Positions 41,917-48,189 of a DNA stretch of 64,000 nucleotides are shown one piece after another (the first letter of the stretch is position 1; every line of letters starts with the position of its first letter). Both the position numbers and the translations under genes were made by a program. The notes beneath the pieces were generated by a model. The model was not told where the DNA came from and searched no databases. It saw nothing but the letters and a program-made list of their open reading frames with translations. This DNA is from Peribacillus frigoritolerans (GTDB lineage: Bacteria; Bacillota; Bacilli; Bacillales; DSM-1321), in assembly GCF_001636405.1 (NCBI RefSeq), contig NZ_KV440950.1, forward strand, positions 1,821,712 to 1,885,711, written 5' to 3'.

Positions 41917-42996
41917 ATGTCCAATAAATCAAAAGTAACAATGGCTGTGACCATTCTGGCATCTTCTTTTTGGCTTTCAGGCTGCGGATTATTTGGCGGT
42001 GAAGAGAAAAAGGAAATTGATCCCCCGAAGGATGTTTCATTAGTCGAGGATGAATCTTCATTAAAAGAAACAGAAACGAATGGTGAGGAAAAGCCAGCGA
42101 CTGAGGGAGAAGAAGGCGCTGTAGAATCGAAAACGGTGAAGACGGAGTTATATTTAATTGATAAAAGCGGGTATGTGGTTCCACAGACATTGGAACTTCC
42201 TAAATCGGAAGCTGTCGCTAAACAAGCCCTTGATTACCTTGTCAATAACGGACCAGTCACGGATAAACTTCCAAATGGGTTCAGGGCCGTCATTCCTGCC
42301 GATACCCAAATAAGCGTGAACATTAAAGACGGGGTGGCTGTGGCGGACTTTTCGCCGGAATTCAAAAACTATCAGAAAGAGGATGAACTTAAAATCCTTC
42401 AAGCCATCACATGGACCCTGACGCAATTCGACTCGGTCGATAAAATCCAAATGAGAATCAATGGGGAAGATATTTCCGAAATGCCGGTCAATGGCACACC
42501 GATAGATGAAAATATCTCAAGGTCTTCAGGAATCAATATCGATACGAGTGATGTAGTCGACATTTCCAATACCAAAGCACTGACCGTTTATTATGTAGGC
42601 GGTGATGAGGAGTACACTTATTATGTTCCCGTGACGCGCAGGATCAGCGAAACGGTGACTGATAATGTAACAGCAGTCATTCAGGAATTAACGAAGAGTC
42701 CTTCGGGTTCTAGCCTGCAAACAGGGTTCATGAGTGATGTAGCTTTACTTGACGAGCCAAAAGTGGCAGAAGGTAAGGTCAGCCTGAATTTTAACGAAAA
42801 TATCCTTGGAAGCTTTAAAGAGAAAAAGGTATCACAAGAGGTCCTTGATGCCTTGGTCCTTTCCTTGACGGAACAGAAAGGAATTGAAAGCGTTGAAGTG
42901 CAAGTGCAGGGCAGCGCAGATGTTCTTAATGAAGAAGGTAAGAAATTATCCGAACCAGTCGTCCGTCCAGAGAAAGTCAACACAGGCAGTTTTTAA
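41917..42996 (+). CDS. gerM: Spore germination lipoprotein GerM
   Basis: 359 residues with a lipoprotein signal peptide (lipobox LSGC, mature Cys near residue 23), an acidic linker, and two GerMN domains (about residues 75-180 and 220-330, the second beginning LTVYYVGGDEEYTYYVPVTR). GerM is needed for sporulation and cortex-related germination and helps the SpoIIIA-SpoIIQ channel in B. subtilis. ATG 41917 follows CTAGGAGTGATTTT. It lies downstream of racE as in B. subtilis, where rph comes next; here a germinant-receptor operon intervenes. Confidence 0.93.
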   Translation: MSNKSKVTMAVTILASSFWLSGCGLFGGEEKKEIDPPKDVSLVEDESSLKETETNGEEKPATEGEEGAVESKTVKTELYLIDKSGYVVPQTLELPKSEAVAKQALDYLVNNGPVTDKLPNGFRAVIPADTQISVNIKDGVAVADFSPEFKNYQKEDELKILQAITWTLTQFDSVDKIQMRINGEDISEMPVNGTPIDENISRSSGINIDTSDVVDISNTKALTVYYVGGDEEYTYYVPVTRRISETVTDNVTAVIQELTKSPSGSSLQTGFMSDVALLDEPKVAEGKVSLNFNENILGSFKEKKVSQEVLDALVLSLTEQKGIESVEVQVQGSADVLNEEGKKLSEPVVRPEKVNTGSF

Positions 42997-43018
42997 ATAT
43001 ATGTAGAAATAAAACAAT

Positions 43019-43050
43019 GAGGCAGCTTGCAGCTGCCTCTTATTTTTTTT
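43019..43050 (+). terminator. gerM terminator
   Basis: GAGGCAGC-TTGCA-GCTGCCTC stem followed by TTATTTTTTTT. Confidence 0.9.
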
Positions 43051-43175
43051 GCCTCCGGCTTTGAATGACCACGCTGTTAGAGAGTTGAAAGCTTACCGCC
43101 CCGAAAAAGTTTTTACATAAATAAATTTTTAAAAGGGGAAATTACTTTTAAACATGTAATTAATGGGGGGGTATT

Positions 43176-44258
43176 ATGGATCAAAAGGTCATTCAGGCTT
43201 TACACATCTATGTTTTAATCATCATGAATACAGGGTTCATGGTACATGTCCTGCTCCTTCCCAATATCTTATCCGCATCTCAACGCGACGGATGGATAAG
43301 TGTCATAATAAGTGTTGTTCCATGTATCGTTTGGACACTATTTATTTTTTATATTTATAAAAAACTAGATAAAGAAGATATAATCTCTTTTCTAAAAAAA
43401 TGGTCTACACCTTTTGTTACATATATTTTCACGATAGCATTTGGCTTGTACTTTATAATTAACGCCTTCATTACCGTCAAATTTACATTGATTTGGGCAA
43501 AAGCTAATTATACTCATGACATACCAAACATCGTAGTCGTCAGCCTATTCACTTTTATTTGTATTTTTGCAAGCTATAAAGGAATACGCACCATAAGTAC
43601 TTTGGCTCTCCTATTTCTACCGGTCGTCACTATTTTGGGGATATTTGTGGGGCTGGGGAACACGAGTAATAAGAATTACGAATTATTGTTCCCGATATTT
43701 GAAAGCGGGTATCGCCATACACTAAATGGAATGCTGTATACGAGTGCAGGATATTTAGAAATCATCGTTTTTTTATTTTTAACTCCTTACTTGAAAAACA
43801 AGATAAAAGCCAAGTGGCTTTTACTGGTTGGTATTATCCTCATCATGCTGACGTTAGGCCCCCTCATGGGAGCGATGGCGGAATTTGGTTCTGTGGAAGC
43901 GGTGAAAATGAGGAATCCGGCTTACGAACAGTGGAAGTTGCTAAGATTTGGCTATTATATTACTCGACTCGATTTCCTTTCCATTTTCCAATGGCTTTCA
44001 GGTGCCATGATCCGAATAAGTTTAAGTTTATTTATAGGCTATAAGTTAATCTCGAATTCAAAACATCAGAAGTGGATACTGCTTACACTATATTTGTTAA
44101 TTGTTATTGGAACGCTAATCCATTGGGATGCTACTTCATTTTTTAATCTTTTATACAAATATTTCTTTCCGATAAGCAGTCTGTTTCTTTTTAGTGCTGC
44201 AATTATACTGTTATTTATTATTTTTAAAAAGGGAAAAGGAAAAGGTGAAACATTATGA
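43176..44258 (+). CDS. Germinant receptor B subunit (GerAB/YndE family)
   Basis: A 360-residue integral membrane protein with about ten helices. It belongs to the spore germination GerAB/APC-superfamily transporter type, thought to bind the nutrient germinant in the spore inner membrane. It begins MDQKVIQALHIYVLIIMNTG and follows a GGGGGGG-type ribosome site. It overlaps the A-subunit gene by 4 bp; order in this operon is B-A-C. The codons look AT-richer than neighbouring housekeeping genes. Which amino acid or sugar it senses cannot be told. Confidence 0.88.
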   Translation: MDQKVIQALHIYVLIIMNTGFMVHVLLLPNILSASQRDGWISVIISVVPCIVWTLFIFYIYKKLDKEDIISFLKKWSTPFVTYIFTIAFGLYFIINAFITVKFTLIWAKANYTHDIPNIVVVSLFTFICIFASYKGIRTISTLALLFLPVVTILGIFVGLGNTSNKNYELLFPIFESGYRHTLNGMLYTSAGYLEIIVFLFLTPYLKNKIKAKWLLLVGIILIMLTLGPLMGAMAEFGSVEAVKMRNPAYEQWKLLRFGYYITRLDFLSIFQWLSGAMIRISLSLFIGYKLISNSKHQKWILLTLYLLIVIGTLIHWDATSFFNLLYKYFFPISSLFLFSAAIILLFIIFKKGKGKGETL

Positions 44259-45730
44259 AGAAGGGAAATTTGAATGATACTCCTTCTTACATTGACCAAA
44301 TCCGAAAATGGTTCGAACATTCTTCCGATGTTGTTTTAAGAACAAAAACTTTTGATAATGAAGGTCGTTATTTGTTGGGATTTTTATATGCGCCAAACTT
44401 AGTGGATATGCCATTCATCAATGAAGTGATTCTGCCTACAATATCTAAAGCGGTTCAAGAAAATGGCGAATTAACAATTGATCAATTAAGCAATATCATG
44501 GAGATCAGTACGCTTAAAAAGGGCTCCGATTTAAAAGACGGAGTAGAAAGCATTCTTTTTTCAGGAGACCTGATCATTATTAATGAATCTTCCAACGAAA
44601 TTTACCATACCCCATTAGCCAATTCCCCTAAGCGCAGTCCGGAAGAATCCAATATAGAATCTTCCATTCGGGGACCTAGGGATGGATTCGTTGAGAATAT
44701 AGCGGATAACATGTCTTTAATTCGCCAAAGGTTAAAAACGGCATCACTTAAATGTATAGAATATACAATCGGGAAAAGAAGTAAAACTAAAATATTGCTG
44801 CTATATATTGATGACATTATCAATCCCTCGATTCTTTTGGATGTTAAAAAACGATTGGATTCATTAAAGGCTGATATCATAGTCAGCAGTTACCAAGTTG
44901 AAGAACTCTTATATGATACTCAACTTTCCATTTTCCCCTTAATGGAGTATATCGGTCGACCGGACTATGTTGTTGAATCCTTGAATCAAGGGCGCTTTGC
45001 CATCCTGGTAGACGGGAATCCCACAAGCTTGATCGGACCAACGAGCATTAATCAGTTACTTTATGCTGCCGATGACGCACATGCAAGCTTTTTTTACATT
45101 AGTTTTATGCGCATCATTCGTGTAGTCTCATTATTTGTAACGGTTACGTTACCGGGATTTTTTATAGCTTTGGTTACCTATCAATTCGATCAAATTCCCT
45201 TTTCGCTTCTTGCGACGATTTCAATCACGAGACAGGGATTACCCATACCTGCTTCTTTGGAGGCATTCGTAATGATCATATTGTTTGAACTATTTAAGGA
45301 AGCCGGTCTTCGCCTGCCAAAAGCAGTTGGTCCGACGGTTTCTGTATTGGGTGGATTGATTATAGGTGATGCAGCGATTCGGGCAGGGCTGACTTCACCC
45401 TCCATGCTCGTAGTAATAGCTGTTACAGTTCTCTCAAGCTATACCCTAATCAATCAGAATATCGCTGGGAATATCGTTCTTATAAGGTTATTCATATTTG
45501 CATGTTCAGCATTTCTAGGCTTGTTCGGATTCTTCATGGGAGTATTTCTTATCTTGATTGTTGTGGTGTCCTTGGAAAGTTTCGGACAGCCTTTTGTGAA
45601 TCCATTTTCCAAACCAAATAAATCGGACATGTTAAAAGTCTTATTCAAGCTTCCGTATGGGATGTTAAGGCAGCGGAATCAAGCTCTACAATCCAGTGAT
45701 AATGAATCGCAAAAGGAGTCGGACAAATGA
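44255..45730 (+). CDS. Germinant receptor A subunit (GerAA/YndD family)
   Basis: A 491-residue GerA-family protein. The soluble N-terminal domain runs to about residue 285 (YIDQIRKWFEHSSDVVLRTK early). A membrane part follows with four to six helices and the conserved ARTP-like segment DDAHASFFYISFMRIIRVVS and LLATISITRQGLPIPASLEA. It forms the receptor with the B and C subunits in the inner spore membrane. Overlaps both neighbours by 4 bp, so translation is coupled. Confidence 0.9.
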   Translation: MKKGNLNDTPSYIDQIRKWFEHSSDVVLRTKTFDNEGRYLLGFLYAPNLVDMPFINEVILPTISKAVQENGELTIDQLSNIMEISTLKKGSDLKDGVESILFSGDLIIINESSNEIYHTPLANSPKRSPEESNIESSIRGPRDGFVENIADNMSLIRQRLKTASLKCIEYTIGKRSKTKILLLYIDDIINPSILLDVKKRLDSLKADIIVSSYQVEELLYDTQLSIFPLMEYIGRPDYVVESLNQGRFAILVDGNPTSLIGPTSINQLLYAADDAHASFFYISFMRIIRVVSLFVTVTLPGFFIALVTYQFDQIPFSLLATISITRQGLPIPASLEAFVMIILFELFKEAGLRLPKAVGPTVSVLGGLIIGDAAIRAGLTSPSMLVVIAVTVLSSYTLINQNIAGNIVLIRLFIFACSAFLGLFGFFMGVFLILIVVVSLESFGQPFVNPFSKPNKSDMLKVLFKLPYGMLRQRNQALQSSDNESQKESDK

Positions 45731-46848
45731 GAAAGCTAATTGCAGTCATGGTAATTGGCTGTCAACTTTTATTGACGACAGGCTGCTGGGGAATGAAGGA
45801 AATTCAAGCTCAAACATATGGATCCGCTCTAGGGATCGATTATAAAGAGGGTGAATTCATCTTATACTTTCAAGCATTGAATTTTGCGGATATAGCAAAA
45901 CAAGAGGGAGCCACAGCATTACAAGAAAAAACTGGTGTTGTCATTGGGAAAGGTAAAGGGGAAAGTATCGAAGAAGCATTTACTGAATTGGAACAAAATG
46001 CAGCATTGCCACTTTATATAGGGCATGTTAACTCCTTCATTTTAAGTGAGGATGTAATCAATAAGAAAATGAAGGATTTCATTGAATATGTAGGGAAAGA
46101 GCCCTTATTGCGATACAATTCATGGCTGTTTGTTACAAACGAGGATATTAAAAAGGTGTTTAACGGTGATAGTTTCTTTAATCTTCCTAACTTATTCACG
46201 ATCATTCAAAGGCCAGAGACCGTTATTCATGAAAACTATTTCATTTCCCCGTTAAAATTCAGTGAACTGGTTTCGAAATTTTATCAACCGGTTGGTTCCA
46301 TTTTAATTCCCTCTATGGTAATAAATGAGCATCATTACACAGACAGGGGGAAAGAAAAAAAGATACCAACGTTGAATGGCGGCTATGTTTTATCAAAACA
46401 ACAGTATAAAGGGTTCGTAAGTAAACAAGATTTGACTGGTATGAAATGGGTTGAAAATAAGGCGACAGTCATGTTTTTTTCCCTGAATAAACAAAAGGTA
46501 AGTGTTGAAATCATGGACCCCAAAACAAACATCAAAGTATTGGAGCAACAAAAGAAACCCTTATATGATTTAGAAGTTAAAGCAAATGGGATATTGAAAC
46601 AAAATTTAGACAACCTGGATATGGGAAAAATCGAAAAAAAGGTAGAAATAAAAATTAAGGAAGATATTTTGAAGACATTGGAGACGGGGGAAAAAATCAA
46701 CACAGACCTTTTTAACATAAGTGAAAAGGCATACAGATACCATGTCAATAAGTGGGATAATAAAATTATTAATTCCTTCGATAAGACTTCAATAAATGAT
46801 ATAAAAGTTAATATCCATATTGAACATAGTGAAAATTACAAACGTTAG
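45727..46848 (+). CDS. Germinant receptor C subunit (GerAC/YndF-family lipoprotein)
   Basis: A 373-residue lipoprotein with signal MRKLIAVMVIGCQLLLTTGC (lipid-modified C20) and a Ger(x)C body. It begins after the lipobox with WGMKEIQAQTYGSALGIDYK. It is the third receptor subunit, on the outer face of the spore inner membrane. The stop is immediately followed by the eroded rph sequence; no terminator is evident, so read-through toward rdgB is possible. Confidence 0.9.
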   Translation: MRKLIAVMVIGCQLLLTTGCWGMKEIQAQTYGSALGIDYKEGEFILYFQALNFADIAKQEGATALQEKTGVVIGKGKGESIEEAFTELEQNAALPLYIGHVNSFILSEDVINKKMKDFIEYVGKEPLLRYNSWLFVTNEDIKKVFNGDSFFNLPNLFTIIQRPETVIHENYFISPLKFSELVSKFYQPVGSILIPSMVINEHHYTDRGKEKKIPTLNGGYVLSKQQYKGFVSKQDLTGMKWVENKATVMFFSLNKQKVSVEIMDPKTNIKVLEQQKKPLYDLEVKANGILKQNLDNLDMGKIEKKVEIKIKEDILKTLETGEKINTDLFNISEKAYRYHVNKWDNKIINSFDKTSINDIKVNIHIEHSENYKR

Positions 46849-46868
46849 TTTATAAGTTTCAGGTTATT

Positions 46869-47034
46869 GCAGGTGAGGGAGTTGTGTTAGACTTAACTTA
46901 TCTGGAAAATTCAGCGGCTGTTGTTGATCATGATAGGCAGAGTTGAATCCGTCCGTTGGCACTGGAGAAGAAGCGGCTTTTACATATGACGAATGACAGC
47001 AAATTCTTTCTCAGCCCAAAAGAGCTCCCGTGCC
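46869..47034 (+). pseudogene. rph: Remnant of ribonuclease PH gene (C-terminal part, frameshifted)
   Basis: Three reading frames give consecutive pieces of the RNase PH C-terminus. Frame 1 (46869-46928) reads AGEGVVLDLTYLENSAAVVD, like the family's GVVLDLNY-EDS-A-VDMN. Frame 2 (from 46936) reads GRVESVR, like G-FVE-Q. Frame 3 (from 46958) reads GTGEEAAFTYDE and then a stop, like GTGEEATFS. A further shift gives AQKS. About 170 bp survive; the 5' three quarters are absent. It lies exactly where rph sits in B. subtilis (between gerM and rdgB), so loss of a former rph is the likely reading. The protein comparison is from memory. Confidence 0.78.
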
Positions 47035-47062
47035 GATAAAATGAAAAAGGGTGAAATGAAAA

Positions 47063-47674
47063 ATGAAGACAGTAATCATTGCAACGAAAAATAAAGGGAA
47101 AGCCAAGGAGTTCGAAAGCTTATTTTCTGCTAAAGGTTATGAAGTCAAAACACTTCTCGATGTACCGGATGCCCCGGATGTGGAGGAAACAGGCACGACC
47201 TTTGAAGAAAATGCGATCCTGAAGGCAGAGGCCATTGCCCATCAGCTAGGCCACTTTGTCATTGCTGATGACTCCGGATTGATTGTAGATGCATTGGAGG
47301 GCCGTCCAGGCGTTTATTCTGCCCGTTATGCTGGAGAGGCCAAAAGTGATGAAGCAAACACGGAAAAAGTCCTCCGCGAACTGGAAGGCGTGCCAAAAGA
47401 GGCTAGGACGGCGAGATTTTATTGCGCCTTGGCACTAGCGTCACCCAACCAGGAAACGATTACGGTATCGGGAACGATGGAAGGCTTGATCACGGAACAG
47501 CCTTCAGGAACGAATGGATTTGGTTATGATCCCATCTTTTTTGTAGAGGAACAGGGCAAAACAAACGCTGAATTGACAAAAGAGGAAAAAAATCAAATCA
47601 GCCACCGTGCCAACGCGTTGAGGGCTCTAGATGAAAAACTTGATCCATTTCTAAAAAGGGAAGAAGGAATGTGA
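47063..47674 (+). CDS. rdgB: XTP/dITP diphosphatase (non-canonical purine NTPase, RdgB/YsnA)
   Basis: 203 residues of the Ham1/RdgB family, starting [20 protein letters not shown], with [20 protein letters not shown] and [13 protein letters not shown]. It hydrolyses XTP and dITP to prevent their incorporation. The start follows AAAGGGTGAAATGAAAA. It just precedes ysnB. Confidence 0.94.
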
Positions 47675-47676
47675 CG

Positions 47677-48189
47677 ATGAAAGTGCTAATAATGAGTGAC
47701 AGTCATGGCTTAACTCATGAAATCAGCATGATTGCCGAACGTCATAAACAAGAGGTCGCCGCCATGATCCATTGCGGTGATTCAGAGTTGGAAAGAAATG
47801 ACCCTCACATGGCGGAGTTTTTGGCCGTTGGCGGGAATTGCGACTATGATTCGGCATATCCGGATGATATTGTGGAGAATATCTCAGGCAAGCGTTTCTT
47901 CGTTACGCATGGACACCTCTATAATATAAATATGACCTTGATGAACCTATCTTATAAAAGTGAGGAGACAGGGGCGGATATTATTTGCTTTGGTCACTCC
48001 CATGCTCCAGGTTCAGAGTGGATTGACGGCAAGCTCTTCATCAACCCGGGAAGCATACGGCAGCCGCGGGGACGAAAAGAGAAAACCTATGCCATTTTGG
48101 AGATTGGAAATGACCAACTTGAAATCATCTATTATGACCTTGAAGGAAAAATCGTTGAGGATCTAAGAAATGCTTATCAAATGGAATGA
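47677..48189 (+). CDS. ysnB: YfcE-type metallophosphoesterase (YsnB)
   Basis: About 170 residues with calcineurin-like phosphoesterase metal motifs: LIMSDSHG, IHCGDSE, VGGNCD, VTHGH and FGHSH. Probably a phosphodiesterase of unknown natural substrate. ATG 47677 has AGAAGGA about ten bases upstream; the GTG at 47671, overlapping the rdgB stop, is less well placed. Forms an operon with rdgB. Confidence 0.9.
   Translation: MKVLIMSDSHGLTHEISMIAERHKQEVAAMIHCGDSELERNDPHMAEFLAVGGNCDYDSAYPDDIVENISGKRFFVTHGHLYNINMTLMNLSYKSEETGADIICFGHSHAPGSEWIDGKLFINPGSIRQPRGRKEKTYAILEIGNDQLEIIYYDLEGKIVEDLRNAYQME

Follow-up and report, generated by a model that had tools for sequence, protein, structure and literature searches.

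Promoters that lie within one coding region of an operon and drive the next gene are well known. The putative promoter described here differs from other intragenic operon promoters in that its host gene, rph (encoding RNase PH), is dead, and the promoter stands out as the surviving stretch upstream of the next gene, rdgB. The rph-rdgB (rph-ysnA) locus of Bacillaceae has the order gerM-rph-rdgB with rph overlapping the rdgB start, and a promoter-like element after gerM; that arrangement underlies the locus of Peribacillus frigoritolerans studied here, but rph is dead, the old element is degraded and an operon has been inserted. PMC9040804 describes RNase PH as the principal 3' exonuclease acting on tRNA precursors with encoded CCA in B. 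subtilis. In E. coli K-12 rph-1, according to PMC9997739, RNase PH was likewise killed, there by a frameshift, and the effect on the next gene (pyrE) matters. The downstream gene of rph-1 suffers from the frameshift, whereas rdgB here is apparently served by a promoter of its own within the dead rph, and many species have become fixed for the loss. TRTG is given as the -16 consensus of B. subtilis extended -10 promoters in PMC6570832 (citing Voskuil and Chambliss 2002), which also reports that TRTG put into one engineered promoter abolished activity, so that it is not beneficial in every context. As in those promoters, TRTGn stands directly 5' of the proposed -10 hexamer at the present locus, but the hexamer is TAGACT instead of TATAAT and lies in former coding sequence. 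The open-licence literature searched yielded no account of rph loss in Peribacillus or of an rdgB promoter in rph, nor any paper that pairs Peribacillus with RNase PH.

The window, a stretch of 64,000 nucleotides (G000:C1:1821712-1885711) of the 5.46 Mb P. frigoritolerans genome (G000), contains in order a racemase gene (racE-like, PF01177), gerM, a germinant-receptor B-A-C operon, a gap, rdgB, a phosphoesterase gene and a tRNA-Arg gene (Table 1). The initial annotation took the three genes upstream of the gap for a B-A-C germinant-receptor operon, and the family matches agree with this: the A, B and C subunit families are adjacent on one strand, and by family content the inserted operon is a gerA-type germinant receptor operon. 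A block upstream of it, AAAGTTTTTACATAAATAAATTTTTAAAAGGGGAAATTAC at 43107-43145, is largely conserved in the operon carriers compared and is perhaps the operon's own promoter region. The metallophosphoesterase gene adjoining rdgB is, judging by the overlap, probably co-transcribed with it.

Table 1. Features of the gerM-rdgB region, in positions of the window
Feature	Position	Strand	Evidence or remark
gerM	41917..42996	+	PF10646
Degraded counterpart of the older rph-rdgB promoter-like element (relatives: TGnTATACTATA)	42997..43018	+	5/11 mismatches here
Terminator-like hairpin 3' of gerM	43019..43039	+	Sequence scan; similar inverted repeat in relatives
GerAB-type permease gene, inserted operon	43176..44258	+	PF03845, E 4.7e-34
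GerAA-type gene, inserted operon	44255..45730	+	PF03323, E 1.3e-137; orthologue found at this site only
GerAC-type gene, inserted operon	45727..46848	+	PF25198 and PF05504
rph (RNase PH) 3' remnant, frameshifted and with deletions	46854..47062	+	DNA alignment to intact G006 rph; stops in three frames
TTGCAG, weak -35-like hexamer (speculative)	46867..46872	+	By eye; 15-nt spacer to TAGACT; not flagged in sigma-70 scan
TTGTGTTAGACT, proposed extended -10 of rdgB	46882..46893	+	Invariant run in 21 genomes; former rph codons V-L-D
AAAGGGTG, likely rdgB ribosome-binding site, formerly rph coding	47046..47053	+	Largely conserved in 21-genome alignment; role inferred
rdgB (Ham1/ITPase family)	47063..47674	+	PF01725, E 1.8e-71
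Metallophosphoesterase gene adjoining rdgB	47671..48189	+	PF12850; overlaps rdgB stop

Each of the three forward frames of the gap between the operon and rdgB (46849-47062) is interrupted by stops. When the gap was aligned as DNA to the intact rph of G006 (L026/L051), a genome whose gerM and rdgB products share 93% and 94% amino acid identity with those of G000, the score was 130, compared with a maximum of 33 in 500 shuffles. When rph proteins were used as tblastn queries (14 of 30 had been correctly extracted), matches fell inside 46863-47020 with a best E of 1.8e-6. The results showed that the three fragments in which the initial annotation had recognized the C-terminal signature of RNase PH are real and collinear with rph. 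Homology begins at about codon 162 of 260, so the 5' part of rph is gone as had been proposed, although the missing portion is roughly five eighths of the gene and not three quarters. Deletions within the remnant are visible in an alignment of 21 genomes, and since 19 further genomes have related decayed remnants, sequencing error is unlikely as the source of the decay. A family search of the whole genome found no other RNase PH; the sole match was a 705-aa frame with two RNase PH domains, which was read as PNPase, and the proposed loss of RNase PH is thereby supported. With homology in the right place and order, the frame destroyed and no intact copy found elsewhere, the stretch is an rph pseudogene.

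The gerM-rdgB interval was compared in 36 Peribacillus genomes, all of which have gerM and rdgB. The result showed that rph is kept in 7 (G001, G004, G006, G014, G018, G023 and G032) and lost in 29. The three-gene operon with an rph remnant occurs in 12 genomes, G000 included, with one stop in the A gene of G020. Two more (G024 and G028) have a decayed operon beside the remnant; in these loci (L033 and L034) C-subunit pieces alone were found. A remnant without the operon is present in six (G007, G010, G013, G017, G025 and G034), and a short gap without rph in seven (G002, G008, G009, G011, G019, G021 and G027), among which tblastn gave a faint rph trace in G002 alone (E 0.12). In G015 (L053) a thiamine operon on the strand opposite to rdgB, with ThiF, ThiG, DAO-type oxidase and TMP synthase families, occupies the same place as the germination operon of G000. 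A third, unrelated insert, an ABC transporter operon (solute-binding protein, permease and ATPase families), lies there in G029 (L057). On a seven-gene tree without regain, 8 losses of rph are needed, 6 of them in the clade that carries the conserved element described below; placing G006 outside, as in a gerM+rdgB tree, gives 7 and 5, respectively. In the order as a whole, 34 of 397 sampled genomes lacked an RNase PH match at E 1e-60, so loss is not in itself remarkable. Among 20 listed of these 34 genomes, at least 10 belong to this genus, at least 5 to genus g47 (family f46) and at least 4 to family f22.

The alignment of remnants from 21 genomes showed scattered change and many indels around one long invariant run, TTGTGTTAGACT. 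This is the sole invariant run of 12 nt in the remnant; the next (11 nt) is the rdgB start itself. In the 20 genomes in which rph is dead, 67 of the 223 columns filled in at least 16 copies are unchanged, and the mean is 1.65 changes per column as counted on the tree. The longest unchanged run in this test is exactly TTGTGTTAGACT, and its length was reached in 1 of 20000 column shuffles, so that the sequences record both decay and selective conservation. The column test is free of motif choice, whereas the other motif counts use TRTGnTAGACT, which was picked post hoc. This motif precedes rdgB in 28 of the 36 genomes, namely in 27 of the 29 that lost rph and in 1 of the 7 that keep it, and it persists in lineages in which tblastn finds no further trace of rph. 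No 6-mer other than TAGACT recurs in the final 250 nt upstream of rdgB in all 27 motif-bearing genomes without rph (0 of 300 shuffles); it stands between 39 and 216 nt from rdgB, with strand and order constant. The motif needs one change on the tree, and this single origin means that its link with rph loss comes without independent contrasts.

Within TTGTGTTAGACT, TRTGn corresponds to 46883-46887 and the hexamer TAGACT to 46888-46893, giving TGTGT-TAGACT, in which positions 2 and 6 of the hexamer are A and T. This is the layout of an extended -10 element, and the proposed element shows evolutionary constraint. TAGACT matches TATAAT at 4 of 6 positions, the -35 is poor, the overall match to the -35/-10 consensus is insufficient, and a simple sigma-70 scan misses the site. 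Extended -10 promoters can do without a good -35. None of the other sigma consensus sequences, compared by eye, fitted the conserved stretch. TRTGnTAGACT was not enriched genome-wide as a promoter class (6 sites in G000, compared with 16 for the reversed control). Of its five other genomic sites, three are in or at reading frames and two are apparently non-coding and upstream of a same-strand frame, the latter being an anecdote. The only other genomic copy of TTGTGTTAGACTT (L111, G000:C1:3108902) and one TGTGCTAGACT (L107, G000:C1:288056) precede reading frames on their own strand.

The older promoter-like element, TGnTATACTATA, sits between the gerM stop and the hairpin, that is, between gerM and rph. 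It is present with 0-1 mismatch in all 8 genomes that lack TRTGnTAGACT, including G002 and G027, which have no rph. Among the 28 genomes with TRTGnTAGACT, 26 have 2-6 mismatches and only G006 and G025 have one or none; the count of mismatches alone is no proof that a degraded copy is inactive. Named loci at which gerM was matched numbered 57, including 3 from Peribacillus; 45 of them have the element with up to 2 mismatches, compared with 0 of 57 shuffles. On the seven-gene tree, again without regain, the old element was lost 6 times, always inside the new-element clade; as this clade holds 2.61 of 4.36 branch-length units (about 60%), the coincidence is mild evidence. The two elements show complementary fates in these sequences, and G006 (rph intact) and G025 (rph dead), each with both elements, look like intermediates. 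In relatives, the old element lies within the first 75 nt past the gerM stop and just 5' of the terminator-like hairpin, so that transcription from it would run into the hairpin from the outset; this might allow attenuation or provide a protective stem at the 5' end.

Taken together, the distribution of the old element and the invariant run make a promoter switch the best reading: the gap is a dead rph, and the core that survives in it is, in our judgement, probably a working promoter of rdgB. In an ancestor shared by part of the genus, the rph codons V-L-D (GTG TTA GAC T) would have become an extended -10 element of the form TRTGnTAGACT. Transcription by the housekeeping sigma form of RNA polymerase would begin at about 46900, just past the element, and cover rdgB and the phosphoesterase gene. 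With this new promoter for rdgB, both the old promoter between gerM and rph and the rph frame would have been free to decay, leaving selection mainly on the -10 element and the rdgB ribosome-binding site. In the lineage of G000 the operon would have been acquired afterwards, landing within the dead gene 5' of the promoter. From the patterns above we infer the promoter activity of either element, the start site, the sigma factor and the order of promoter first and loss later. The rph piece would thus have survived because a likely rdgB promoter lies in it, a point that the initial annotation missed; its observation was real, its interpretation was partly wrong, and the interest most likely lies in this promoter within a fossil gene.

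The initial annotation had linked the loss of rph to acquisition or relocation of the operon. One rival account is that the insertion destroyed rph and the remnant is a functionless leftover at the right-hand junction, as the adjoining operon and truncated rph in the 12 carriers, and decayed operon traces in two more, would lead one to expect. It is nevertheless extremely improbable. Comparison of the interval in relatives turned up intact rph, remnant, operon and short gap, and the operon was rejected as the cause of the loss: rph is decayed in six relatives that lack it, and five of them (G007, G010, G013, G017 and G034, not G025) have an apparently common deletion from about codon 90, although the anchor before this deletion is just 12 nt in G013 and G017. 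Nor would a functionless leftover be expected to keep a 12-nt run unchanged amid varying sequence. In the gerM+rdgB tree, the intact G006 falls outside all 20 remnant-bearing genomes (support 88/90), and G007 clusters with the operon-free clade (82/92), apart from 13 operon carriers; in the seven-gene tree the placement of G006 has a support of 42 and G007 is nested among operon carriers. Because of the operon-free remnants, the apparently common deletion and the position of G006, rph was probably dead before the insertion. The simplest reading of these sequences would be one death of rph before the operon arrived, with local recombination around G007; possibly the operon was lost there instead. 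The sdhC genes of G007, G005 and G026 are 96-99% alike but resemble those of the other clade members at only about 80%, which points to local recombination near the locus. As for the origin of the operon, a GerA-like search at E 1e-150 in the 36 genomes found the orthologue (90-100% identity) solely at the gerM-rdgB site, in 12 genomes, whereas the other matches, elsewhere in four genomes, have 49-50% identity. Because the orthologue occurs at this site alone, acquisition is favoured and relocation within the genome finds no support; the operon looks acquired, although an older operon since lost elsewhere is possible.

Two other explanations concern the conserved stretch itself. It could be a feature of a passive pseudogene, kept by chance or by short divergence time after rph became dispensable. 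The 34 genomes of the order without a match, together with RNase R and RNase Z in all 36 genomes of the genus, suit such dispensability, and trimming of tRNA by other nucleases is probably why rph could be lost. Chance conservation, however, is very unlikely given the single column shuffle in 20000 that reached the run, the persistence of TRTGnTAGACT where tblastn shows no other rph, and the complementary decay of the old element. The stretch might otherwise be a regulator binding site or a promoter for another sigma factor. Its TAGACT is letter-perfect in 27 genomes, which is stricter than an ordinary housekeeping -10 should need; this strictness is unexplained and counts against the promoter reading, and the failure of the sigma-70 scan points the same way. 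We regard this explanation too as unlikely, since the TRTGn extended -10 layout fits, the distance to rdgB varies widely, the presence of the stretch mirrors the decay of another extended -10-like element, and two further genomic copies likewise lie ahead of a reading frame. The rdgB promoter thus remains the preferred reading. A further step, that a chance promoter in rph codons released rdgB, set off the repeated loss of rph and made the gap accept foreign operons, is tentative and rather doubtful. It is based on 5-6 losses of rph in the clade (7-8 in the genus) and 6 of the old promoter, and on the three unrelated operons (germinant receptor, thiamine and ABC transporter) in the gap, each upstream of the new element; no insert between gerM and rdgB was found in the 8 genomes without the new element.

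The arrangement did not generalise to other genera in the loci compared. TRTGnTAGACT upstream of rdgB was found in only 2 of 80 named loci, both from Peribacillus without rph, and at the L-D codons of rph in 0 of 44 other loci checked. TAGACT alone lies within 300 nt of rdgB at 15 of the 80 loci, these two included; in 11 of the other 13 it coincides with the (L/V)-D-L codons of a matched rph, and at two of these (L122 and L132) it reads TGnTAGACT, so codon choice alone can produce most of the element. The results also showed that rph is full-length at 69 of the 80 loci; the 11 at which it is absent or partial include 2 from Peribacillus and 2 near contig ends (L155 and L157). Eight of the loci with absent or partial rph were inspected. 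The old element is retained in Rossellomorea, B. salacetis and two H. coagulans; in Fictibacillus another extended -10-like site occurs close to the end of gerM; and neither the old nor the new element was clearly matched at the loci of Cytobacillus horneckiae, Rummeliibacillus and H. acidiproducens. The rph of Peribacillus G006 overlaps the rdgB start by 32 nt.

The proposal that tRNA 3' ends are trimmed by other nucleases in G000 is consistent with the gene content, as PNPase is present in addition to RNase R and RNase Z. In a scan of 30 loci over 4 genomes, in which overlapping loci may double-count some genes, CCA was encoded in 60 of 73 tRNA contexts in G000 (rph dead) and 73 of 87 in G011 (rph gone), and in 30 of 36 in G006 and 60 of 69 in G001 (both rph intact). 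With CCA still encoded in 60 of 73 contexts and RNase PH absent, other nucleases must trim. Compensation through loss of CCA-encoding tRNA genes was not seen in these proportions for two genomes without and two with rph.

In Peribacillus, then, the gene for RNase PH has often decayed to scraps, of which one short scrap hardly changes, and this scrap has most likely been kept as the on-switch of rdgB. In one genus, with apparent intermediates kept, the locus suggests that a promoter can move into a neighbouring gene and outlive its host gene, and that such a move can free an operon for gene loss and gene insertion. For annotation, it is a caution that protein signatures in pseudogenes may persist for DNA reasons. 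The seven or eight losses of RNase PH, in genomes whose tRNA genes mostly encode CCA in the sample scanned, are natural tests of redundancy in tRNA trimming.
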